From Bacteroidales bacterium (GTDB lineage Bacteria > Bacteroidota > Bacteroidia > Bacteroidales > FEN-979): a stretch of DNA of 64,000 bases. The position numbers and the translations under genes were made by a program. The stretch is taken from NCBI GenBank assembly GCA_025355465.1, contig JANXZO010000024.1, positions 1-64,000 on the forward strand, read 5' to 3'. Below the pieces are notes generated by a model, which made no database searches, was not told the origin of the DNA, and worked only from the letters and a program-made list of their open reading frames with translations. This document shows, piece after piece, positions 3,931 to 16,277 of this stretch. Position 1 is the stretch's first letter, and each line of letters starts with the position of its first letter.

Positions 3931-6900
3931 TCAGCTTTGGTTCCTTTGCAATCTCTTTGCATTGCGCAATGATCTCCGCCTTCTGATGCGGGTGATCATC
4001 TGATGATCGATCAGGATCATGGCAGGAACGAATACCAGTGTGAGGAAAGTCGCAAAACTTAGGCCGAAGATAATGGTCCATGAGAGAGGGCCCCAGAAGG
4101 CAACATTGTCGCCCCCGAAATAGAGGTGTGGATTCAGCTCGGTGAAGAGGGTGATAAAGTTGATATTCATGCCTACCGCCAGCGGAACCAGCCCGAGCAT
4201 GGTGGCAGTGGCGGTTAAAACCACCGGCGTGATCCTGGTTTTGCCAGCCTGGATAATGGCCTCTTTGGTTTTCATGCCCCTTAACTTGAGTTCATCACCA
4301 AATTCCACAATCAGGATTCCGTTTCTCACCACAATTCCGCCCAGGGCAACCACTCCGAGGCCTGTCATAATTACGGAAATGGTCATTCCAAAGGCTACGA
4401 TGCCCAGTAAAACTCCGATCACACTGAATATTACCTCACTAAGAATGATAAAAGATTTACTCAGCGAACCGAACTGGGTGATGAGGATAAAGAAAATCAT
4501 ACCGATGGCAATCATCATGGCTTTGATAAGGAAGGCCATGGTTTCAGCCTGATCTTCCTTCTCGCCGGTCAGGTTGATCTCGATGCCTTTTGGGGTGCTG
4601 AATCCGGATAACGACTGGTTAATGGCAGCCACAACTTCATTGGCTGTAAACCCCGACAATACTTCGGAAGAGACGGTTATCACCCGTTTCAGGTTTTTAC
4701 GTTTTATACCCCCGTAAGTGTCGCGGTAATCAATGGTAGCTACCGAAGAGATGGGGATCTGACGAAGCTGACCACTGTTCATGTCGCGGTAGGTAACCTT
4801 TGCATTGATGATCTTGTTGATGCTTTTTCGTTCGCTTTCCGAATAGCGTAATTGAATTGGGTATTCGTCTTCCTCTTCTTTGTATTTGGAGACCTCTTTC
4901 CCGAAAATGGCTGTCCTCAGCTCGAGTCCGATCTGACCGAGACTAAGACCTTCACGGTTGGCCCTGACCCTGTCGATGTGGATGATAATCTCCGGCTTGT
5001 TTTTTTCAAAGTCGGATTTAAGTTTCTCAATTCCGGGAATTCGCAAAGAGTCAAGATAGTTAATAAATCCTACCGAGGTCCCGATCAGGTCTTCCATATT
5101 CTCGCCGGTAATCTCAATATTGATCGGTTTACCGGTTGGCGGCCCCATTTTATTCTTCTCCACACTGATGGTCGCACCGGGAATGCCTTTCAGGTTGTTC
5201 CTGATCTTGTCCATTAGATCCTGCGTTGACACCCCGTTCCGGTACCTGCTTTCAACGAAATTGATGGTCACTTTTCCCTTGTTTGAAGCAATCGTCCTGT
5301 CGAACATGCCATCGCCCGCATTGAACCCTACGTTCGAAATAATCGACTCAACAATGGGGTTGTCTTTTCCGAGCACTGCGGCAACCCGTTTCTCGACCTT
5401 CCGGGTTACGGAATCAGTCACCAATTGGTCAGTGCCTTCGGGCATCTTAATGAACACAAGAACGTTTGCCGGATTGTTATTGGGGAAAAAGAGCACTTTA
5501 GGTTTTGCCACACCGGTAATGAAGATGGTAAAGAAAAACAACGCAATAACTCCAACGAGCAAATACCAGGGGTTTCGTCCGTTCAGGGCAAACCGCAGTG
5601 TCCTTTCATAGAGGCTGATCATGGTGGGCCACAATTTGTTTTGAAAACTGATGATGGCCTGTTTCAGTACAAATTGGTATAACAGGTACAATACCAGGGC
5701 AAGAACCATGACGTTGCCGAATGCAAATGCGCCTCCGGTATAAAAAATTATCCCAACCAACAACATGAGTGCGCTGACAATGGCAAGACGCTTCCGGTCA
5801 GGCTTGTGTTCGGTGGTGTCGTATTCATGCTTCATGAAGCTCACAGCGAAAACAGGATTGATGATATAAGCAACAAATAGGGATGCGAATAGCGTGAGGA
5901 TCAGGGTCACCGGCATGTAGTGCATGAATTTTCCAACAACGCCGGGCCAGAAGGCAAGCGGGAAAAAGGGTGCCAGCGTAGTAAGGGTTCCGGAAAGAAT
6001 GGGAAGGAACACCTCTCCCGCGGCGTTTTTCGCCGCCTTCACAATATCGGGTTGCGTCCGGTGCATACGGTGGGTGTTCTCAATAACCACAATGGCATCA
6101 TCAACAATGATCCCGAGGGCAAAGATGAAGCCGAACATCACGATCATATTCATGGTAAACCCGAGATTTGGCATGATCAGGTAAGCCACAAACATTGACA
6201 ACGGCACCGACAAAGCAACGAAGAAGGCATTGTTGATACCCATAAAGAACATCAGAACAATGGTAACCAGAAGAAACCCGATAATTATGGTATTGTTTAG
6301 CTCCTCGAGTGTGCTGCGGGTAAATTTCGACTGATCACCGGTGAGTGTTACCATCAGGTCAGGAGGGAAGACATTGCGTTTTAACCCGTCCATTATCTGT
6401 TTAATATTGTCGGAAGCATTGATCAGGTTTTCCCCGCTTTTCTTGATCACGTTCAGGGTTATCACATTTTTACCGTTCAGACGTGCAAAACTCTCCTGAT
6501 CTTTGTAAGAATCCTTTACATCGGCAATATCTTTGATATAAACCATGGCCCCGCTGGCTGATTTAAGCAGGATAGTTTTGATCTGTTCCGGCGATTTGAA
6601 CTGACCGGCAAGGCGAATGGTGTATTTGGTTCCGAAGGAGCTGATGGTACCGGCGGATATCGTTACATTTTCGGCAGCAACCGCATTTTCTATATCCCGG
6701 AAGGATACACTGGCCGCCTGCATTTTATACATATCTACGTCAATCTTTATTTCGCGTTCAAGGGCTCCGACAATATCAACCCGTGTAATCTCCTTTAATC
6801 CTTCAATCTTGTCCTGCGCATCCTCTGCATATTTTTTCAGCCGCGGCAGATCATAGTCTCCGGCAAGGTTGATATTCATGATGGGCACCTCGGAAATATC

Positions 6901-7326
6901 AAATTCTTTAATGTCGGGATCTTTTGGCAGGTTATTCGGCAGGTTGGTCTTTGCCTTGTCCACGGCATCACGGACGCGCTGTTTCGCTTCAGAAACCTGG
7001 ATTCCGGGCTTGAATTCAACAACGATGGTTGAGAAATCCTGAACGGAGTTGCTGGTGATTTTTTTTACATCTGCCAGTGATTTGCATTGCTTTTCAATAG
7101 GCCGGGTCACCAGATTCTCCATGTCCTCCGGCGAAGTGCCTGGATAAACCGTGTTGATGAGGATGGTGGGAATTACAATTTCAGGGAACTGTTCTTTCGG
7201 GATGCTCATATAGGAGAGCACACCCATGGCCGTAATGATCACAGTAAGGACATAGATACTGACCTTATTGTCGATGGCCCAGCTGGTGGCAAAAAATTCC
7301 TTGAGCTTATATTCTTTCTTTTTCAT
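3931..7326 (-). CDS. RND-family efflux permease (AcrB/HAE-like)
   Basis: This 1131-residue inner-membrane pump is proton-driven and works with the adaptor encoded just upstream. Visible hallmarks are TM1 at about residues 22-41, the porter domain, and the TM4 aspartate pair in GIIVDDAIVVIEN (D409-D410). A duplicated second half ends with TM8-12 and a basic tail. It is about 80 residues longer than AcrB. The extra length lies between the two halves, where residues 513-531 and 535-554 form two additional hydrophobic segments before TM7. The start is 15 bases downstream of the adaptor gene on the same strand. It converges on the tolC-like gene with 33 bases between them. Confidence 0.92.
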   Translation of the reverse strand: MKKKEYKLKEFFATSWAIDNKVSIYVLTVIITAMGVLSYMSIPKEQFPEIVIPTILINTVYPGTSPEDMENLVTRPIEKQCKSLADVKKITSNSVQDFSTIVVEFKPGIQVSEAKQRVRDAVDKAKTNLPNNLPKDPDIKEFDISEVPIMNINLAGDYDLPRLKKYAEDAQDKIEGLKEITRVDIVGALEREIKIDVDMYKMQAASVSFRDIENAVAAENVTISAGTISSFGTKYTIRLAGQFKSPEQIKTILLKSASGAMVYIKDIADVKDSYKDQESFARLNGKNVITLNVIKKSGENLINASDNIKQIMDGLKRNVFPPDLMVTLTGDQSKFTRSTLEELNNTIIIGFLLVTIVLMFFMGINNAFFVALSVPLSMFVAYLIMPNLGFTMNMIVMFGFIFALGIIVDDAIVVIENTHRMHRTQPDIVKAAKNAAGEVFLPILSGTLTTLAPFFPLAFWPGVVGKFMHYMPVTLILTLFASLFVAYIINPVFAVSFMKHEYDTTEHKPDRKRLAIVSALMLLVGIIFYTGGAFAFGNVMVLALVLYLLYQFVLKQAIISFQNKLWPTMISLYERTLRFALNGRNPWYLLVGVIALFFFTIFITGVAKPKVLFFPNNNPANVLVFIKMPEGTDQLVTDSVTRKVEKRVAAVLGKDNPIVESIISNVGFNAGDGMFDRTIASNKGKVTINFVESRYRNGVSTQDLMDKIRNNLKGIPGATISVEKNKMGPPTGKPINIEITGENMEDLIGTSVGFINYLDSLRIPGIEKLKSDFEKNKPEIIIHIDRVRANREGLSLGQIGLELRTAIFGKEVSKYKEEEDEYPIQLRYSESERKSINKIINAKVTYRDMNSGQLRQIPISSVATIDYRDTYGGIKRKNLKRVITVSSEVLSGFTANEVVAAINQSLSGFSTPKGIEINLTGEKEDQAETMAFLIKAMMIAIGMIFFILITQFGSLSKSFIILSEVIFSVIGVLLGIVAFGMTISVIMTGLGVVALGGIVVRNGILIVEFGDELKLRGMKTKEAIIQAGKTRITPVVLTATATMLGLVPLAVGMNINFITLFTELNPHLYFGGDNVAFWGPLSWTIIFGLSFATFLTLVFVPAMILIDHQMITRIRRRRSLRNAKRLQRNQS

Positions 7327-7341
7327 GCGTTCGTGTGGTAA

Positions 7342-8460
7342 TTAAAAGTTGATGAGCTGGCCATCGTAAAGGTCTTTGTATCCGGCAGTAATAATTCTGT
7401 CACCTTCATTCAGACCGGAGACGATCTCCGTGAGACCGTTGAAACTGTTCAGCGTCACAATGGCACGTTTGCGGGCCATTTTCTTTCCATTTTCTTCCGA
7501 TCCCACAAATACATATTGCCCTTCATCCGGCGAATTCTGAATATACCCCTGGGGAATGGCAATGGCAGCCGGATTGCTGTAATCCTTGATTCTGAGAACG
7601 GCAATCATGTTGGCGCGATAGGTAATGCCGTTGTTGGGCAGGGCCACTTCAACGAGAAAAGTACGGTTGGTGGGGTTGATGTATTTACTGGAGAAGGTTA
7701 CCTGCTGTTCAATTTCAACATTCAGGTCTGGCAGGAAAACCTTAACGGCATCACCGGTTTTAACCTTCGACGAATAGGACTCACCTACATCGGCAAGGGC
7801 TTTTGCTCTTGAAAAATTGACAATCCGAAAACATGGGGTGGGGGAAGCTGAGGAGGCCATTTGCCCGACCTTGATGGGAATATCTTCCACATTTCCATCG
7901 ATGGGAGAGGTGATTACCGACATCTTGATCTGGTCCTGCAACGTGTTGATGCCGTTCTGAACCGATTCCATGTCATTCTTGGCTTTCAGGTATTGTACTT
8001 CCGATCCGATCTTCTGATCCCAAAGCGCTTTCTGACGGTTAAAGATGTCTGTTGCAAACGCCAGCTTATTCTGAAGATCCACCAGCTGCTGTTTCAGAAC
8101 CTCCGCATCAAGTTCGGCAAGAACCTGTCCTTTGGTAACAAAATCGCCTTCATGTACCGGAATTTTGGTCACAACGCCTCCCTGGTTTCTTGGGCTTACG
8201 CCGATGTTCTCATTGCCGTCTATACGCCCCTGCACCTCAATAAAATGTTCAAATGGTTTTTTGAGAAGGGCCTCGGTAGTTACATTAACCGCCACGAGGG
8301 TCCCAGCCGGATTTACCTCTTTTTCGAGTTTCATTATCTCTTCGGTAATTTTTTCGTGCTCCTTCCGGAGCTGCTCCAGCCTGGTTTTTTTATCTGCCTC
8401 TTTACTTCCGCATGCCAGGAGAAAAAAGATCATTCCGGTGATCAACAAAATCTTTTTCAT
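7342..8460 (-). CDS. RND efflux periplasmic adaptor (membrane fusion) lipoprotein
   Basis: This 372-residue adaptor links the RND pump to an outer-membrane duct. It starts with a lipoprotein signal (MKKILLITG, then FFLLAC, Cys17), so it should be anchored to a membrane by lipid. A short coiled segment follows (about 25-50), then the lipoyl half-motif (GDFVTKGQVLAELDAEVLKQ), an alpha-hairpin (about 125-185) and beta-barrel/proximal domains. It is the first gene of a two-gene operon with the RND permease. The TetR gene at 8593 is divergent, 132 bases away. Confidence 0.9.
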   Translation of the reverse strand: MKKILLITGMIFFLLACGSKEADKKTRLEQLRKEHEKITEEIMKLEKEVNPAGTLVAVNVTTEALLKKPFEHFIEVQGRIDGNENIGVSPRNQGGVVTKIPVHEGDFVTKGQVLAELDAEVLKQQLVDLQNKLAFATDIFNRQKALWDQKIGSEVQYLKAKNDMESVQNGINTLQDQIKMSVITSPIDGNVEDIPIKVGQMASSASPTPCFRIVNFSRAKALADVGESYSSKVKTGDAVKVFLPDLNVEIEQQVTFSSKYINPTNRTFLVEVALPNNGITYRANMIAVLRIKDYSNPAAIAIPQGYIQNSPDEGQYVFVGSEENGKKMARKRAIVTLNSFNGLTEIVSGLNEGDRIITAGYKDLYDGQLINF

Positions 8461-8511
8461 GATGTAAAAAACTATATAAATACTATTTTATCGGGACTTG
8501 TTAAGATGAGG

Positions 8512-8519
8512 CAAATATA
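8512..8519 (-). promoter_or_regulatory. Promoter -7 element (TATATTTG, minus strand) for the MFP-RND operon
   Basis: On the minus strand, bases 8519 to 8512 read TATATTTG, a match to TAnnTTTG. Initiation near 8508 would give a leader of about 48 bases. It shares the 132-base intergenic region with the divergent tetR promoter. Confidence 0.45.
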
Positions 8520-8580
8520 CTCAATTTCCTCATGGAAAAAACTTTTTAAAGGAAAATAGTTTCCGTCGTATTTTTTTGAA

Positions 8581-8588
8581 TACCTTTG
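8581..8588 (+). promoter_or_regulatory. Promoter -7 element (TACCTTTG) abutting the second tetR start
   Basis: TACCTTTG ends only four bases before the ATG at 8593. Bacteroidetes transcripts usually begin a few bases after this element, so the mRNA would be leaderless or nearly so. Confidence 0.55.
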
Positions 8589-8592
8589 TAGA

Positions 8593-9216
8593 ATGGAAGC
8601 AAAGGTACTTCACATTCTTGAACAGGTCAAAAAACTTTACCAGCGTTACGGAATCAAAAGTGTAACAATGGACGATGTTGCGAGTCATCTTTGCATTTCC
8701 AAGAAGACACTTTACGAACATTTTACCGACAAGGAGGATCTTGTCAGGAAGGTGCTGCTGCTGGGGCATGAACGCCAGTGTGCATTTATGGATGACCTTG
8801 AAAGCCAGAATCTGAATGCGATCGAGGAGGTGTTTATGGTCTATAAAATGATCAACAACATGTTTCTGGAATATAACCCCTCGATGGACTATGACATTCG
8901 AAAATATTATCCTGATCTGTTTGGGAAAATAAAGGAGATACGCCGCAAACGTTTATATGAATCCGCCTATAAAAACATGAAAAAGGGGAAAAAGGAGGGG
9001 TTATACCGCAAGGATTTGAATGAAACTATCATTGCCAAACTCCATGTCTTCCGCACAGAGAGCCTTTTTGACAACGATATGTTTTCCATTGAAGACCTCA
9101 CCTCGTTTAAAATGTTCCATGAGATTTTTGTTTACCACCTACAGGGAATTCTTAGTGAAGACGGACGGAAGTTTTTCGAGTCGAAATTCGGAAAACTTAA
9201 AGCGAGCCTAGATTAG
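8593..9216 (+). CDS. TetR/AcrR-family regulator, RND-linked copy
   Basis: This 207-residue regulator has a TetR helix-turn-helix at about residues 8-46 (YGIKSVTMDDVASHLCISKK, then TLYEHFTDKEDLV). It is a paralog of the regulator at 1901 and aligns with it without gaps through the DNA-binding domain, which supports the ATG at 8593. The next Met (residue 26) would cut into the HTH. It is divergent from the MFP-RND operon, the classic position of a local repressor of an efflux pump. A -7 element ends only four bases before the ATG. Ligand is unknown. Confidence 0.87.
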   Translation: MEAKVLHILEQVKKLYQRYGIKSVTMDDVASHLCISKKTLYEHFTDKEDLVRKVLLLGHERQCAFMDDLESQNLNAIEEVFMVYKMINNMFLEYNPSMDYDIRKYYPDLFGKIKEIRRKRLYESAYKNMKKGKKEGLYRKDLNETIIAKLHVFRTESLFDNDMFSIEDLTSFKMFHEIFVYHLQGILSEDGRKFFESKFGKLKASLD

Positions 9217-9265: not shown

Positions 9266-9321
9266 ACAGTGTCAGGCAACCAAAGTTGCTGATTGGTGTC
9301 TAACAATTGGTTAACATCCGG

Positions 9322-9897
9322 ATGAACGTCGACGACGCAATTATTAAGGGCTGCATGGATGGTAAGCGCGAAGCTCAAAAGCTCCTTTACCAGGCTTATG
9401 TATCTACCATGATGGTAGTATGTATGCGGTATGCCCAGCATCGCGATGAAGCGGAAGACATTTTGCAGGAGGGATTTGTCAAGGTGTTTGAAAACATTAA
9501 TTCGTTCCGGAGCGAAGGTTCATTGGAAGGCTGGATAAAGCGCATTATGATAAACCATGCGCTGAACCACTTAAAAAAAAACAGGCGAATGCCTTTTTTT
9601 GAGGACATCGATGTCATCAATGAGATGGAGATTCTGCACAATGATGAGCCGGCATCGTTTTATTCGCCAGTATCACACGAAACACTGATGGCGCTGATAC
9701 AGTCACTGCCTCAGGGCTATCGCCTCGTATTCAACATGTATGTGTTTGAAGATTATAGCCATAAAGAGATTGCCGCTGAACTGAAAATATCTGAAAATAC
9801 ATCGAAAACACAGCTGCTTAAAGCCCGGCGTATGCTCAGGAATAAGATTGAAGAATTGCAAAAAAACTTGAATAAGGAAAAGATCAATGAAAGATGA
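9322..9897 (+). CDS. ECF-type RNA polymerase sigma factor (copy 1)
   Basis: This 191-residue sigma-70-family factor has region 2 at about residues 20-88 (QHRDEAEDILQEGFVKVFEN, then LEGWIKRIMINHALNHLKK) and region 4 at about 125-182 (LPQGYRLVFNMYVFEDYSHK, then EIAAELKISENTSKTQLLKA). I chose the ATG at 9322 over an in-frame TTG five codons upstream. The following gene starts inside its last codons (9887), implying coupled translation with a membrane partner that probably controls it. A clear paralog with the same gene arrangement lies at 15130. It probably directs transcription of a small regulon, perhaps the adjacent surface proteins, but no recognition motif could be derived. Confidence 0.9.
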   Translation: MNVDDAIIKGCMDGKREAQKLLYQAYVSTMMVVCMRYAQHRDEAEDILQEGFVKVFENINSFRSEGSLEGWIKRIMINHALNHLKKNRRMPFFEDIDVINEMEILHNDEPASFYSPVSHETLMALIQSLPQGYRLVFNMYVFEDYSHKEIAAELKISENTSKTQLLKARRMLRNKIEELQKNLNKEKINER

Positions 9898-11269
9898 TTT
9901 TTTAAACAAGGCTGATGAAGGAAAAGAGATGGATGACCTGTTCAGGCAGGGGATTTCGGGGATGCGCTCCGAACCATCCGGATCTGTATGGAAAGGAATT
10001 AGCCGGAAATTGTTGTGGAGGGAATTACTAAACTTCAATTTCAGAAACCTTTCCCGTTCTCTCTTAATCGGAGGTGCCGTATTTTTGGCGGTTGTGTCGA
10101 CGGTTACCTATATGAACTTCAAACACTCGCCGGCCGGTGCGCTGAATGCGCAGAAAACCAATGTGGTGCTGGCAACAAGCCAACACAGTGAGGCTGGTTC
10201 CCTGCCTGATCCCAAAATCATGCCTGATCTGGCCGTTGAAACCAGGGCAGGGATAACGGGTGTTTCCAACCCAGAACCGGTACCCTTGAGGAATTACAAG
10301 CCCGCCAATAATCCGGCAAAAAGAGGAACCTCAAGCCAGCTTCTTGCCGAAGCGCAGGACATGACGGAAATTTCTGCGACCACCCACCCGGCTGTTGCTG
10401 GTGATGCTTCTGCAATCCGTTCAGATAATTTGTCCTCCATCTCAAAACTGAGTTCATATGATGCTCAATTATTATCAGTTAATCCATCTTTCGATACATT
10501 GATAATTTATACACCCACCGAAACTATTAAGATTAACAGGCAAACGAAGCCCGTGACCAATTTCTTCTCCGCATCGCTTGGAATCAGTCCCGAAGCAATC
10601 TACTACTCCTCCCCCGAAACCTATTCCAAAGTTAATTTCTGGGTAAATTCAGGATTCACTTGGCACCTCTCAAGATTTTCGCTGGGTACCGGCCTCGGAC
10701 TGGGTTATGTTAATGATGAAGGAAAATACAGGATCGATTACCTGAGCAACGACAGCATCGGCTATTACAATGGCGTAGTGAACTATTCCATCGACCCTGT
10801 CACCAACCAGATTGTCTTCAACACGCAGAGCTTCAAGGTAACTGACAGCATTTACCATGTGGCTGATGACCGGACAAGAAACCGGTATACATACCTGCAA
10901 ATCCCATTGCTGTTTGGATACCGGTTATTCGAATCCTCCCGTCTGAGCATTACGCTCCAGGCTGGTCCTGCAGTGTCATTCCTTGTATCCAGTAAAGAAG
11001 CTGAACCCAACATCAGTATCTCCAATGCACGGATCACACTCATCACAAACAATGCACCGGCCCGTGTTACAACTACCTGGCAGCTATGCGCGAATTTTTT
11101 GATCGAATACCGTTTAACCAAAGAGGTAAGCCTTTACTTTCAGCCGGTGTACAAATACTACCTGAAACCTTTAGCGGAAAAGGAAAATGTAACCTACGGA
11201 CAACCATGGTCCATCGGACTTGGAGTCGGTCTGCAATTCAACTTCGGACATAAAAAGAATGATCAATGA
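9887..11269 (+). CDS. Sigma-factor partner: cytoplasmic motif, one TM helix, periplasmic linker and outer-membrane beta-barrel
   Basis: This 460-residue protein has a two-membrane layout. Residues 1-57 are charged and should be cytoplasmic; they carry EPSGSVWKGI at 29-38. A single hydrophobic helix spans about 58-76. Residues 80-215 are low-complexity, rich in Ala, Pro, Ser and Thr, and fit a periplasm-spanning linker. Residues 216-460 alternate hydrophobic and polar residues (FFSASLGISPEAIYY, LGTGLGLGYV, IGLGVGLQFNF), as in PorT/OmpA-like barrels. It overlaps the ECF sigma gene by 11 bases and the next gene by four. The gene order of an anti-sigma factor and the motif shared with the partner at 15702 suggest it holds the sigma factor. 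That role is inferred. Confidence 0.7.
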   Translation: MKDDFLNKADEGKEMDDLFRQGISGMRSEPSGSVWKGISRKLLWRELLNFNFRNLSRSLLIGGAVFLAVVSTVTYMNFKHSPAGALNAQKTNVVLATSQHSEAGSLPDPKIMPDLAVETRAGITGVSNPEPVPLRNYKPANNPAKRGTSSQLLAEAQDMTEISATTHPAVAGDASAIRSDNLSSISKLSSYDAQLLSVNPSFDTLIIYTPTETIKINRQTKPVTNFFSASLGISPEAIYYSSPETYSKVNFWVNSGFTWHLSRFSLGTGLGLGYVNDEGKYRIDYLSNDSIGYYNGVVNYSIDPVTNQIVFNTQSFKVTDSIYHVADDRTRNRYTYLQIPLLFGYRLFESSRLSITLQAGPAVSFLVSSKEAEPNISISNARITLITNNAPARVTTTWQLCANFLIEYRLTKEVSLYFQPVYKYYLKPLAEKENVTYGQPWSIGLGVGLQFNFGHKKNDQ

Positions 11270-12825
11270 AGCGAATCTACTCAAAATTACTGCCCATAAT
11301 CCTGTTCGCCCTGCTGCTCTCCTCTGGCGTAACCGCTGCCTCGGTTGCAGTGAAAGCCTCAGGATTCCCTGTATATGTTTCAGGTAAAGTTACGGACGAT
11401 GCAAATGGCCAGGCAATTCAAAACCATGAGGTCTATGTTGCCGTGGAAGGTTTAGGCTATTCAAACACTGTTTTTACGAATTCGGATGGGTTTTATTTCG
11501 ATACAATTCCTGATGTCGGTTCCGGGTATATGGTTCAGGTTGGCACCCTCGATTGCGAAGAGGATCTGCATTCATCGACCTTTCAGAGTATTCAGACCCC
11601 GGTTGTGATCAACTTTAAAATATGTGTTACACCGCCACCATCTCCCTGCCATGCTCAATTTAATTACCTCCTTGACACCCTCAACCGCGAACCGAATACT
11701 TTCTGTTTTCAGGATGTTTCTACCGGCGATTACGGGATCTGGCTGTGGCATTTTGGCGACGGGGGATTCTCGACGGAGAAAAACCCTGTTCACCGGTTCC
11801 GGAAAGCTGGAACATATTCAGTATGCCTGGTTATATCAAAGGTGGAATCAGGACATGTTACTTGTTTGGACAGCATCAGCCACTCCATCACCACAGCGAC
11901 TTACCGGAATCTTGGCGGTCATCTTTTTGCCGGTAATTTTCCGATTAACAATCCTGTCTCCACAGGCGACACGGGAGTAGCATACCTTTACCGTATTGCC
12001 GGCACCAAGGCACAACTGGTCGATACAAACCAATTTACCCACCTTGGATATTATACTTTTCCACAGGTCATTGCAGGTAATTATCTGGTCAGGGCATGGC
12101 TTACACCCGGCTCGGTGCATTACCGTCAATTCTTCCCGACCTATTATGAAGATCAGATCAAATGGTTTCATGCGGGATGGATCACCATTGCAGACTCAGG
12201 GGTCTATTCAGCCCATGTTTATCTTTCCCCGACGGCAGACTCCCTGCCGGGTCTGGCTGCCGTTAAAGGATTCGTTACGCTTGATGAGTCTGACGATCCT
12301 GAATCCGGGAAGTCCGTTCCCGGGGCAACGGTAATTCTTTGCAGCACTGCCTCTGTTCCCCTGCAATATACCATGACAAACCACGATGGGAACTTTCAGT
12401 TTGCCGATATACCATACGGCAACTACCAACTCTATGTTGATTTGCCAGGTAAGTATTCCCGGTTTACGGCACTCTCTGTTTTGCCGCCTGTTGTTGTACG
12501 CGACAGCATACACCTGGAGCTCTTCAACCACAATGTAACCGCGATCCGCGAGATGGAAATGTATTCGATCTCACTCAGCAGTGCATTTCCAAACCCGGCA
12601 TCCGACGATTTGTTCCTGGTGGTGAAACAACTAACTCCCGGAATCCTGACATTCATCATTTATGATCTGGCCGGCAGGGCAGTTTCCACAACTCAACTGC
12701 CATCCGGAACCGGTCCGGAACCGGTCAATCTTTCACTGCATTCTCTGATGAGTGGCGTATATTTCCTGGTGGTTAAATCAAACAATGGATCTCAGGCCCG
12801 GATTCAAAAAATAATTAAAAATTAG
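11266..12825 (+). CDS. Secreted PKD-domain surface protein with T9SS type A sorting domain (1 PKD)
   Basis: This 519-residue protein is a probable T9SS cargo. Signal peptide is about 1-25. Residues 37-121 form a carboxypeptidase-regulatory-like beta domain (SGKVTDDANGQAIQNHEVYV). Residues 128-208 are one PKD domain (WLWHFGDGGFSTEKNPVHRF). Residues 213-320 form a domain with FFPTYYEDQIKW, also found in the next protein and in the sigma partner at 15702. Residues 333-420 are a second regulatory-like domain. Residues 436-519 are a type A CTD (SSAFPNPASDDLF to RIQKIIKN). Its ATG overlaps the stop of the sigma partner (ATGA), so it belongs to that operon. No catalytic motif is seen; an adhesive or structural role is likely. 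Confidence 0.8.
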   Translation: MKRIYSKLLPIILFALLLSSGVTAASVAVKASGFPVYVSGKVTDDANGQAIQNHEVYVAVEGLGYSNTVFTNSDGFYFDTIPDVGSGYMVQVGTLDCEEDLHSSTFQSIQTPVVINFKICVTPPPSPCHAQFNYLLDTLNREPNTFCFQDVSTGDYGIWLWHFGDGGFSTEKNPVHRFRKAGTYSVCLVISKVESGHVTCLDSISHSITTATYRNLGGHLFAGNFPINNPVSTGDTGVAYLYRIAGTKAQLVDTNQFTHLGYYTFPQVIAGNYLVRAWLTPGSVHYRQFFPTYYEDQIKWFHAGWITIADSGVYSAHVYLSPTADSLPGLAAVKGFVTLDESDDPESGKSVPGATVILCSTASVPLQYTMTNHDGNFQFADIPYGNYQLYVDLPGKYSRFTALSVLPPVVVRDSIHLELFNHNVTAIREMEMYSISLSSAFPNPASDDLFLVVKQLTPGILTFIIYDLAGRAVSTTQLPSGTGPEPVNLSLHSLMSGVYFLVVKSNNGSQARIQKIIKN

Positions 12826-12930
12826 CATTCCGGGCAACTATTTATTTTATCCCGGGTCTTATACACATACCAGATATCCTTGCCGGCCATGAGGCTGACT
12901 GGCAATACCTACTAACCTAATTTTCAGATT

Positions 12931-14976
12931 ATGAAAAAGCTCGTCTTATTAGTAAGCATACTCTTTGCGTCCGTTTCTTTCTTGACTGCGCAAACAATCA
13001 CTGTTCATGTTAGCGGATTGGTCAAGGCCCAATCAACAGGGGCCCCTCTTCCGGGTCATGAGGTAATTATCATGACAGACAGCAGTGCCGGGTTCAATTT
13101 TTACGCTACCCGCATAACCGGTCCCAATGGATTCTATGACTGTACCATAAATAATGTTCCGGCGACCCCGAATATTACCTTTATTGTTAAAACCCTTGAT
13201 TGTAACAACCAGTATGAGGTGGAGACATTCCAAAGCAACAATTCACCCGCTGTGGTTGATTTTGAAATTTGTACACAGAATAACAGCTGTGAGGCTTCAT
13301 TTGAATATTCTCATGATTCAATAAACCCACTGACGTTCCACTTTTTTAGTAACAGTGAAGTCCCGCCTGGTGATTCCATTGTAGCTTACAGCTGGAATTT
13401 CGGCGACAGTACAGCCTATGGTACCACACAGGATCCCTGGCATACCTTTGCCGCTCCTGGACAATATCATGTGTGCCTTACCATTACAACGAGTTCGGGA
13501 TGTACCAGCACGGAATGTGAGGAGGTGGAGACTGGGCAGGGCGGAGGTGGTCAGTGCCATGCCAGGTTTGAGGTGTATCACGATACCACAAACCAGCTGA
13601 AATTTCATTTTTTCAGTACCAGCGAGATCACGGCAGGTGAAACCATCACTTCCTACAGCTGGAATTTCGGTGACAGTACAGCCTATGCTACCACACAGGA
13701 TCCGTGGCATACCTATGCAGCTCCCGGAGAATATCACGTTTGTCTGACCATTACAACCAACACCGGATGTACCAGTACCGAATGTGAGGAGGTGCACGCG
13801 GGGCAGGGTGGGGGCAGTCAGTGTAATAACTGGTTCTCCTATTCCAAAAACATGCTGACTGTTAACTTTGAAGGACATACGCATAGTCTCTTTCCGACTA
13901 CCTGGCTATGGAATTTCGGGGATTCGGCCTCCGGTGTTAACAACACGTCGAACCTTCAATTCCCTCAGCATGTATATTCCACTCCGGGGATGTACCAGGT
14001 AACACTCACCACCGTCGATTCAACCGGATGTACCGATGTAAGTTCCAAGAATATTCATGTTCAGGGAACCGTTGATGTTTTCGGTACTGTGCACGCCGGC
14101 GACCATCTTGTTGATCACGGTTTTATTGAATTGATCAGGGTTGATTCAAACAATGTGCTCACAGTGGTTGATTCACAGGCATTTGGCGATTCTGTTGGAA
14201 TGTACTGGTTTGGCGGGGTACCTTCAGGTCACTATTACCTTAAGGCTGAACTGCTTCCCGCTTCGGCTTACTATGGTCAGTTTGTTCCCACCTACTACGA
14301 AGAGGCGTTAAACTGGACAAATGCAAACCTGATCACCATTGGCGACCCGGAAAACCCATATAATTTTGGTCTTCGACATGTTGAAGGTCCTTCGTCAGGA
14401 AATGGTAATATCAGCGGAACCATTACCAGTGGAGCCAAAGTAAACTCAGGCGGTTCGCCTGCAGCAGGAGTAGAGGTGCTCCTTCTCAACGGAGCCGGAG
14501 TTGCGTTGACCTATACCAAAACGGATGGCAACGGACAGTTTGTTTTCCCTGCTGTTGCGATGGGAAGTTATACCGTGTGGCCTGAAGTGGCGGGGTTGCT
14601 TACCACCCCTGCAAACATCAGCCTGAATGCAACCAACCCGTCTGCAACCCTGCCATTCAGCATGACCACTGGACAGGTTATTTATGGGATAAACAGCAAT
14701 CTTCCGGACTATTTTAACGAAGTTGGGGAGATTTTTCCCAACCCGCCGGTCGACGGAAAAGCAAACATCTCCTTTACTGTAACGCGCGATTTGAACCTCG
14801 AAATTATATTGTACAATCAGGTCGGTCAGGTGATGCGGAACAAACAAGCTTCTCTTCGCACTGGAACCAATGTGGTGAAATTCGATGTTGGTAACCTGGC
14901 AAAGGGTCCCTATTTCATGGTACTGAAATCGTCTGAAGGCGGTTCGGTCATAAGAAAACTCTCTATCATACAATAA
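12931..14976 (+). CDS. Secreted PKD-domain surface protein with T9SS type A sorting domain (3 PKD)
   Basis: This 681-residue protein is a paralog of the preceding one. Signal peptide is 1-20 (SFLTAQ). A regulatory-like N-terminal domain covers about 27-115. Three PKD units start at Cys120, Cys209 and Cys298, each with a WNFGDS motif. The first two are near-identical 89-residue copies and the third is diverged. The shared FVPTYYEEALNW domain lies at about 388-490, another regulatory-like domain at about 495-590, and a type A CTD at the end (GEIFPNPPVDGKANISF to IRKLSIIQ). It follows the previous gene by 105 bases and precedes a strong terminator, so it is probably the last gene of the first sigma operon. 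It may also have its own promoter. Confidence 0.82.
   Translation: MKKLVLLVSILFASVSFLTAQTITVHVSGLVKAQSTGAPLPGHEVIIMTDSSAGFNFYATRITGPNGFYDCTINNVPATPNITFIVKTLDCNNQYEVETFQSNNSPAVVDFEICTQNNSCEASFEYSHDSINPLTFHFFSNSEVPPGDSIVAYSWNFGDSTAYGTTQDPWHTFAAPGQYHVCLTITTSSGCTSTECEEVETGQGGGGQCHARFEVYHDTTNQLKFHFFSTSEITAGETITSYSWNFGDSTAYATTQDPWHTYAAPGEYHVCLTITTNTGCTSTECEEVHAGQGGGSQCNNWFSYSKNMLTVNFEGHTHSLFPTTWLWNFGDSASGVNNTSNLQFPQHVYSTPGMYQVTLTTVDSTGCTDVSSKNIHVQGTVDVFGTVHAGDHLVDHGFIELIRVDSNNVLTVVDSQAFGDSVGMYWFGGVPSGHYYLKAELLPASAYYGQFVPTYYEEALNWTNANLITIGDPENPYNFGLRHVEGPSSGNGNISGTITSGAKVNSGGSPAAGVEVLLLNGAGVALTYTKTDGNGQFVFPAVAMGSYTVWPEVAGLLTTPANISLNATNPSATLPFSMTTGQVIYGINSNLPDYFNEVGEIFPNPPVDGKANISFTVTRDLNLEIILYNQVGQVMRNKQASLRTGTNVVKFDVGNLAKGPYFMVLKSSEGGSVIRKLSIIQ
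13288..13821 (+). repeat. Tandem in-frame duplication, 2 x 267 bp (PKD units)
   Basis: Two consecutive 267-base units (13288-13554 and 13555-13821) each encode an 89-residue PKD module. Long stretches match at the DNA level, for example around the WNFGDSTAY and GCTSTECEEV codons. A third, diverged unit follows from 13822. The period is exact in codons, so the frame is preserved. Confidence 0.85.
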
Positions 14977-15049
14977 CTTTACTACACTCATCCTGATTAA
15001 CCCCTGTTTCAACCGATTCCGGTGGGTATAATCGCAACGAGGTACTCAG

Positions 15050-15085
15050 GCCCGGTGGAAAAAACTTTCTGCCGGGCTTTTTATT
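15050..15085 (+). terminator. Intrinsic terminator after the PKD gene pair
   Basis: GCCCGG (15050-15055) pairs with CCGGGC (15072-15077), followed by TTTTTATTT. It separates the first sigma operon from the second sigma gene at 15130. Confidence 0.7.
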
Positions 15086-15129
15086 TGCAAAAAGGTTATA
15101 CATTTATCCCTTAAAATAACCTATCCTGA

Positions 15130-15690
15130 ATGGATGATGAAAGAGATCTTGTAAAACGATGTCTCAAAAGGGAGGTCAAAGCCGAGAAGCAATTGTATGA
15201 TCTCTATGTACATAAGATGTTTGGGATTTGTTTGCGTTATTCAGGTAATGCCATGGAGGCCGAAGATCTGATGCAGGAAGGTTTCCTTCGTGTTTTTTCG
15301 CTCCTTCACACATTTCGTTTTGACGGCTCGCTCGAAGGCTGGGTGTTTCATGTCTTCATTCACAGTGCAATCAACTACACAAAGAGACACCTCAGGTTTA
15401 AAGCGGAGGTGAGACTTGAAAACTACGACCACCATGCAACCTTTCATGAGGAGTCGCTGTCTAAACTATCACATGATGAGATGTTGAAGATCATCCACGA
15501 TCTTCCACCGGGATACCGAACTGTGTTTAACTTGTACGCGATTGATGGCTATCATCATAAAGAAATCGGAAAGATGCTAGGAATTTCGGAGGAAACTTCG
15601 AAGTCTCAACTTTATATGGCGAAGCGAAGGATTCGTGAAATCCTCATCGCGCGGACCAATTTTGGCTTGCATAACATTGCAAAATCTTAA
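15130..15690 (+). CDS. ECF-type RNA polymerase sigma factor (copy 2)
   Basis: This 186-residue ECF sigma factor is a paralog of the one at 9322. Region 2 lies at about residues 20-85 (MEAEDLMQEGFLRVFSLLHT, then LEGWVFHVFIHSAINYTKRH) and region 4 at about 118-180 (LPPGYRTVFNLYAIDGYHHK, then EIGKMLGISEETSKSQLYMA). It starts 45 bases after a terminator, so it should have its own promoter, but I see no TAnnTTTG there. This is compatible with control by an ECF sigma, possibly itself or its paralog. It is followed after 11 bases by a membrane-anchored partner. Confidence 0.9.
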   Translation: MDDERDLVKRCLKREVKAEKQLYDLYVHKMFGICLRYSGNAMEAEDLMQEGFLRVFSLLHTFRFDGSLEGWVFHVFIHSAINYTKRHLRFKAEVRLENYDHHATFHEESLSKLSHDEMLKIIHDLPPGYRTVFNLYAIDGYHHKEIGKMLGISEETSKSQLYMAKRRIREILIARTNFGLHNIAKS

Positions 15691-15701
15691 TCGTAACGGC
15701 A

Positions 15702-16277
15702 ATGGAAGAGGAGGATAAGATTGAAAAAAGGTTCAGTGAAGCGTTCCGCGATTTTAAACGTGAGCCGTCCGGGCTTGTATGGGAGGGATTAAAGAGGGAA
15801 TTGCATCCTGAGTCAAAACCTCAGAATCCTTGGGACCGCCTTTGGATGTTCCCGCGACACTTTCCGGGGCGGTTTCGGCTTGGGATTGCTGCCGCAGCGG
15901 CTGTCTTCGCAATTTTTCTCGGAATCATCTATTTCGGAACAGCCAGTCATCATGTCGTTTCCGGACATGCTTACACCGGAGAGACCCGAATGTGCCGGGG
16001 AACGGCATTTTTATTTAAGGTTGACGACAAAGTGATGCCACGCGATTCAATTGTACATTACAGGTCGGCCATGGTTGATGAGAACGGGGGTTACAGGTTC
16101 CCGGGTATTGGACCCGGTGAATACCTGCTGCGTGTTTCGCCTCCTGACGGGTCGGAGATCGCATCGAAATTCCAGGCCTCATGGTACGATCAGCATGTCA
16201 GTCCCGACTCAGCACACCTCGTGATCGTTGGTCCTGAAGATGTTCAGGCGGATGTACAGATGCGCAAAAGAAATTAG
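15702..16277 (+). CDS. Sigma-factor partner: cytoplasmic motif, one TM helix and PTYYE-type sensor domain
   Basis: In this 191-residue protein, residues 1-57 are cytoplasmic and carry EPSGLVWEGL at 21-30, the same motif as the partner at 9887. A single TM helix covers about 59-79 (GIAAAAAVFAIFLGIIYFG). Residues 84-191 form a periplasmic beta domain: VVSGHAYTG at its start, GYRFPGIGPGEYLLR in the middle, then FQASWYDQHVSPDSAHLVIV. This domain aligns with residues 213-320 of the secreted PKD protein at 11266 and about 388-490 of that at 12931. Position and architecture suggest an anti-sigma-like sensor for the factor at 15130. Its stop directly abuts that of the convergent queD gene. Confidence 0.68.
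   Translation: MEEEDKIEKRFSEAFRDFKREPSGLVWEGLKRELHPESKPQNPWDRLWMFPRHFPGRFRLGIAAAAAVFAIFLGIIYFGTASHHVVSGHAYTGETRMCRGTAFLFKVDDKVMPRDSIVHYRSAMVDENGGYRFPGIGPGEYLLRVSPPDGSEIASKFQASWYDQHVSPDSAHLVIVGPEDVQADVQMRKRN

Follow-up and report, generated by a model that had tools for sequence, protein, structure and literature searches.

In the FecA-FecR-FecI system, a surface event passes through an outer membrane barrel to an inner membrane anti-sigma factor and from there to an ECF sigma factor, a relay comparable to the one considered here for Dma. The barrel of FecA-FecR-FecI is a separate TonB-dependent transporter, whereas in Dma the barrel and the anti-sigma form one chain. Dma2 of Bacteroides thetaiotaomicron is built of an anti-sigma segment, a transmembrane (TM) helix, a disordered tether, and a barrel; it controls its own operon, which is also the operon raised most when the anti-sigma is lost (PMC13088901). 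In Porphyromonas gingivalis, the T9SS CTD protein PorA has been proposed to pass a signal from the surface on to PorXY-SigP (PMC7712824). Here we describe a locus of a lake-dwelling Bacteroidales bacterium, found in the window, by which we mean the whole stretch of 64,000 nucleotides analyzed. Taken as a whole, the evidence inclines us, with some reserve, to see in this locus a pair of related modules, each a sigma factor with its anti-sigma and both of Dma descent, for which the exported cargo would serve as a sensory or feedback partner. Module A consists of sigma1, Dma, and cargo 1, and module B consists of sigma2 and partner 2. All features given below lie on the forward strand.

Layout of the locus and its Dma-type anti-sigma factor

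An earlier note on this DNA had described two paralogous ECF sigma factor genes, each followed by a gene for a single-pass membrane protein, with two paralogous PKD proteins bearing T9SS sorting domains between them. The sigma factors, sigma1 (positions 9322 to 9897) and sigma2 (15130 to 15690), are indeed paralogues, at 40% identity and with matches to Pfam Sigma70_r2 and Sigma70_r4_2 in both (E values of 1e-12 to 1e-16). Sigma1 is of the Das type, cognate to Dma, and in a sigma factor tree it clusters with those encoded ahead of a Dma. The sigma factors that go with the Dma family are assigned to ECF21; for sigma1 the top NCBIfam model is TIGR02985, at a score below the cutoff. The adjacency of the membrane partners also stands: partner 1 (9887 to 11269) has its start codon 11 bp inside the end of the sigma1 gene, and partner 2 (15702 to 16277) follows sigma2 after a gap of 11 bp. 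Partner 1 is not single pass, since it carries a C-terminal outer membrane barrel, a feature that rules out a reading of both partners as ordinary single-pass anti-sigma factors. On the flank, an RND pump, a membrane fusion protein, and a TetR regulator (3931 to 9216) keep their position in most relatives.

Partner 1 is a Dma-type anti-sigma, which by prediction crosses both membranes, with a layout like that of Dma2. In an AF2 model built on an alignment of 43 relatives, residues 1 to 56 are predicted to be cytoplasmic and contain predicted helices at residues 14 to 24 and 32 to 49, with a conserved motif, ahead of the TM helix. By profile scores, the subtype of this N terminus follows the subtype of the sigma factor; the segment is a putative sigma-binding site. 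The single predicted inner membrane helix spans residues 57 to 79 (10055 to 10123), where the AF2 helix coincides with a hydropathy peak at residue 58. It is followed by a disordered tether (residues 84 to 201, pLDDT below 50), which at ~118 residues could, if extended, cross the periplasm. The C-terminal barrel, at about residues 222 to 455 (10550 to 11251), is modeled with pLDDT mostly above 85, matches PF13568 (OMP_b-brl_2) above the cutoff (E value of 1e-8), and has a fold that matches OmpA, OmpW, and NspA at Z of about 17 to 18 (about 17.9 against OmpA/OmpW, with an rmsd of 3.0 over 172). An ECF sigma gene lies upstream in 83 of 86 close Dma loci.

As the earlier note had it, the two proteins between the sigma genes are paralogues that combine PKD domains with a T9SS sorting domain, which is of type A; both also have a carboxypeptidase-regulatory-like domain. 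Cargo 1 (11266 to 12825) has a signal peptide followed by prealbumin-like, PKD, PTYY, CarboxypepD_reg, and T9SS type A CTD regions, while cargo 2 (12931 to 14976) has three PKD domains, a PTYY domain, and a T9SS CTD. Their sorting domains score 37.6 and 36.6 bits, respectively, against Pfam Por_Secre_tail (cutoff of 27) and 47.9 and 30.5 against TIGR04183 (cutoff of 23). The T9SS translocon gene of the host is complete (SprA/Sov, 2,627 bits against a cutoff of 200), and the source genome holds 122 matches to the T9SS CTD. Elsewhere in the window, positions 229 to 1788 encode another T9SS CTD protein, with BNR/sialidase-type repeats by eye, which is unrelated to the circuit. The overlap of cargo 1 with the Dma gene that the earlier note had reported amounts to 4 bp, ATGA (11266 against 11269); the exact 4-bp overlap recurs in 27 of 78 trios, mostly of type A.

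The sigma-Dma-cargo operon and the PTYY domain

What is conserved is an operon of three genes, for a sigma factor, Dma, and a T9SS PKD cargo. The source genome has two such operons, as a second Dma (contig C8) also lies between an ECF sigma gene and a T9SS PKD cargo gene. The earlier note had made its proposal depend on conservation of the neighborhood, and this was found: the order of the locus recurs in about 15 to 17 genomes of the family, and a T9SS CTD gene directly follows Dma in 77 of 78 close Bacteroidales Dma loci, all 77 with PTYY. This count takes each close Dma gene once and requires that the gene after it be complete; in the lone exception a called open reading frame on the opposite strand intervenes, with the cargo beyond it. 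Four distant Dma-like genes of the order have no such cargo directly after them. The order of the three genes is kept in relatives of the same family and the same order and in 53 loci of the GTDB collection, all from uncultured Bacteroidota, mostly labeled Bacteroidales and many from lakes by their record titles. A possible outlying trio, in a genome outside the order, comprises a sigma factor, a Dma-like protein of 614 amino acids, and a CTD/PTYY cargo (L273:2290-5557).

PTYY is a name coined here from a conserved motif. The domain has no Pfam family and gave just weak matches to SdrD_B and CarboxypepD_reg; neither the Dma nor the PTYY profile found convincing sequence relatives in the PDB. 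It was delimited with alignment A6 and matches within the source genome in cargo 1 (11893 to 12249) and cargo 2 (14059 to 14397). Homology to this cargo domain places a third copy in partner 2 (15945 to 16274), where the AF2 model has a transthyretin/CnaB-like fold (Z of 8.8, at modest confidence). The claim that one partner carries the extracytoplasmic domain of the cargo is thus upheld, with partner 2 matching the domain of both cargos at an hhalign probability of 99.1 (E value of 2e-18). PTYY in the source genome is found in cargo 1, cargo 2, the cargo of the C8 trio, partner 2, and, as a weak match, an 804-amino-acid protein without a CTD; among the 122 CTD matches, the three CTD-bearing carriers of PTYY all sit in sigma-Dma loci. 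Across 119 Bacteroidales genomes, PTYY lies downstream of 36 of 38 strong Dma genes, and a Dma lies upstream of 42 of the 50 best PTYY places, a figure biased by the query, since A6 was built from trio cargos and favors the PTYY-Dma association. Other Bacteroidales have divergent PTYY domains at places with no Dma nearby, which means that signaling is not the sole setting of the domain. A strictly signaling-specific PTYY, which holds in the source genome except for the weak match, accordingly fails across the order for the divergent copies.

These divergent copies bear on the main rival to our reading, a less likely one in our judgment, by which the cargo is output only. Dma and sigma1 would then sense the general state of the outer membrane and switch on cargos 1 and 2 as surface products, a parallel being the effect of B. 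thetaiotaomicron Dma1 and Dma2 on vesiculation, and partner 2 would have acquired its domain independently, as a binding domain common in the periplasm. Besides the PTYY-like domains away from Dma genes, this account can draw on the domain tree, which singles out no donor cargo for partner 2 (groupings of partner 2 with first-tandem-trio, type A, and type B domains are all allowed). Furthermore, Dma genes outside Bacteroidales mostly do without an adjoining T9SS cargo, which follows in 1 of 17 genes from other orders. The third gene of the B. thetaiotaomicron operon is likewise without effect on vesiculation (PMC13088901). However, nearly all PTYY domains of the source genome sit in sigma-linked proteins, and the cargo type tracks Dma in nearly every Bacteroidales locus, a tighter link than output requires.

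Promoter motifs and the sigma2 module

A promoter-like motif, GGCAAC-N17-GTCT, lies upstream of the sigma1 operon (9275 to 9301), and a second copy, an exact pattern match, lies upstream of cargo 2 (12833 to 12859); they end 21 bp and 72 bp from the respective genes. Upstream of sigma1-type genes, 36 of 41 regions have the GGCAAC core, against 0.4 expected from shuffled sequence; for the other Dma types the figures are 17 of 21 and 0.3. Among relatives, the core also stands before cargo 2, in 4 of 9 by the strict pattern. Sigma2-type upstream regions have the core in 1 of 29 and a housekeeping-like TAnnTT box in 13 of 29. Since the motif stands before sigma1 and cargo 2 and not before sigma2, sigma1 probably regulates its own operon and drives cargo 2, while sigma2 probably has an ordinary promoter. 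Autoregulation would predict that loss of Dma raises its own operon, in agreement with B. thetaiotaomicron Dma2 (PMC13088901). A large sigma1 regulon was rejected: the strict motif occurs at 7 places genome-wide against 10 in the control, and at this near-chance frequency only the copies at sigma1 and cargo 2 are credible. Three further exact copies (G000:C1:125939, C44:36265, and C49:7050; L288, L289, and L290) lie within 130 bp upstream of genes for large exported or outer membrane-like proteins and may be due to chance; two of these proteins have repeats and closely resemble each other. In the tandem loci L185 and L186, the first sigma factor is preceded by GGTTGCC, which reads as the sigma1 core motif in reverse complement.

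Module B is itself related to the Dma trio. Several other Bacteroidales MAGs have two full trios arranged in tandem (L184 to L187, L189, and L192; in L195 the second trio is cut by the contig end), and 22 sigma2-type factors form the sister group to the sigma factors of the first tandem trios, with support of 99/96. The N terminus of partner 2 matches that of Dma at an hhalign probability of 98.3 (E value of 2e-14), and its profile scores a median of 32.4 bits against the Dma N termini of first tandem trios, compared with 13.2 and 4.5 bits against other Dma groups. Partner 2 has 191 amino acids and one TM helix, which in the AF2 model runs straight into the periplasmic, transthyretin-like domain; its sequence and model show neither tether nor barrel, and no signal peptide or CTD. 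Based on the tree position of sigma2 and the similarity of the partner 2 N terminus, the reading that fits module B best is that of a shortened, derived trio that would have kept the anti-sigma N terminus and replaced tether and barrel with a cargo-type domain. Profile scores suggest that the PTYY domain of partner 2 may derive from the trio's own cargo. In one genome (G034, L103:2236-2763), sigma2 is present without any partner 2 gene, apparently as an orphaned ECF sigma factor.

Another reading is a single integrated circuit of two sigma factors, in which both membrane partners jointly read the amount or export state of the cargo; we hold this to be improbable. The modules are adjacent and in the same orientation in 15 genomes including the source, with two more on broken contigs, and one partner does carry the cargo domain. 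However, either module can be present here by itself: between TetR and QueD, module B is alone in 7 genomes, and module A lacks a complete adjoining module B in 9. Module B also persists in G033 and G021, in which a type-A Dma was not found, and sigma2 is without the motif seen at sigma1 and cargo 2. The independent occurrence of the modules and the difference in their promoters weaken the case for a single joint circuit. Of the circuit put forward in the earlier note, what survives as the best reading is that the membrane partners are anti-sigma factors working with exported cargo; the union of both pairs in one circuit is at best partly supported. Relatives have gained and lost modules A and B between TetR and QueD (16278), and module A lies elsewhere in the genome in other genera (L118 to L124); that this is just a conserved insertion site which gathers unrelated signaling genes, with their common features due to chance or hitchhiking, is scarcely credible, given that sigma, Dma, and cargo stay together at several unrelated genomic sites and that sigma2 and partner 2 share ancestry with the Dma trio.

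Proposed mechanism and relation to known systems

We propose that module A, together with cargo 2 on its own copy of the promoter, works as an autoregulated trans-envelope switch. The architecture, its conservation, the promoter motif, and the kinship of module B come directly from the computations; what is known of the family adds that the Dma N terminus would hold sigma1 at the inner membrane, with sigma1, once free, acting on its own operon. The tether and barrel would anchor Dma in the outer membrane. Free sigma1 would lead to synthesis of cargos 1 and 2 and their export by the T9SS to the surface, where the PTYY/PKD region of the cargo would most likely work with the Dma barrel and so decide on release of sigma1. 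In module B, a PTYY domain in place of the tether and barrel may sense directly in the periplasm. We infer these actions of the cargo and of PTYY from the natural fusion of an anti-sigma with a cargo domain, which argues that the two cooperate in the trios and makes the exported cargo a plausible sensor, ligand, or feedback arm of Dma. The fuller reading that includes module B, in which the sensor domain of an exported product was fused onto the anti-sigma and the barrel discarded, is a possibility that we advance tentatively. Together, the trio and the fusion name a concrete candidate sensor for Dma anti-sigma factors and make the question directly testable.

The earlier note knew of no described system with this composition. 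For sigma1 and partner 1 this no longer applies, as their architecture is that of the published Dma (PMC13088901). The coupling of Dma to T9SS cargo and a barrel-less anti-sigma with a cargo domain were both not found in the literature searched, and the term T9SS has 0 occurrences in the Dma2 paper (PMC13088901). As in B. thetaiotaomicron Dma2, the sigma gene adjoins that of a four-part anti-sigma, the operon includes a third gene, and control of the own operon is predicted here. Unlike in B. thetaiotaomicron, the third gene encodes a T9SS-exported PKD/PTYY protein, and a barrel-less derivative with the cargo domain adjoins. The proposed feeding of an ECF sigma pathway by a surface T9SS CTD protein resembles PorA-PorXY-SigP of P. 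gingivalis; however, in that pathway the signal passes through a two-component system, there is no anti-sigma barrel, and the targets are T9SS component genes. By this analogy, PorA is best taken as a precedent for the direction of signaling and not for its parts, and our reading, if true, would tie T9SS secretion to ECF signaling by a route unlike PorXY-SigP. The locus is a Dma-type system, real, conserved, and more specific than the earlier note could tell.
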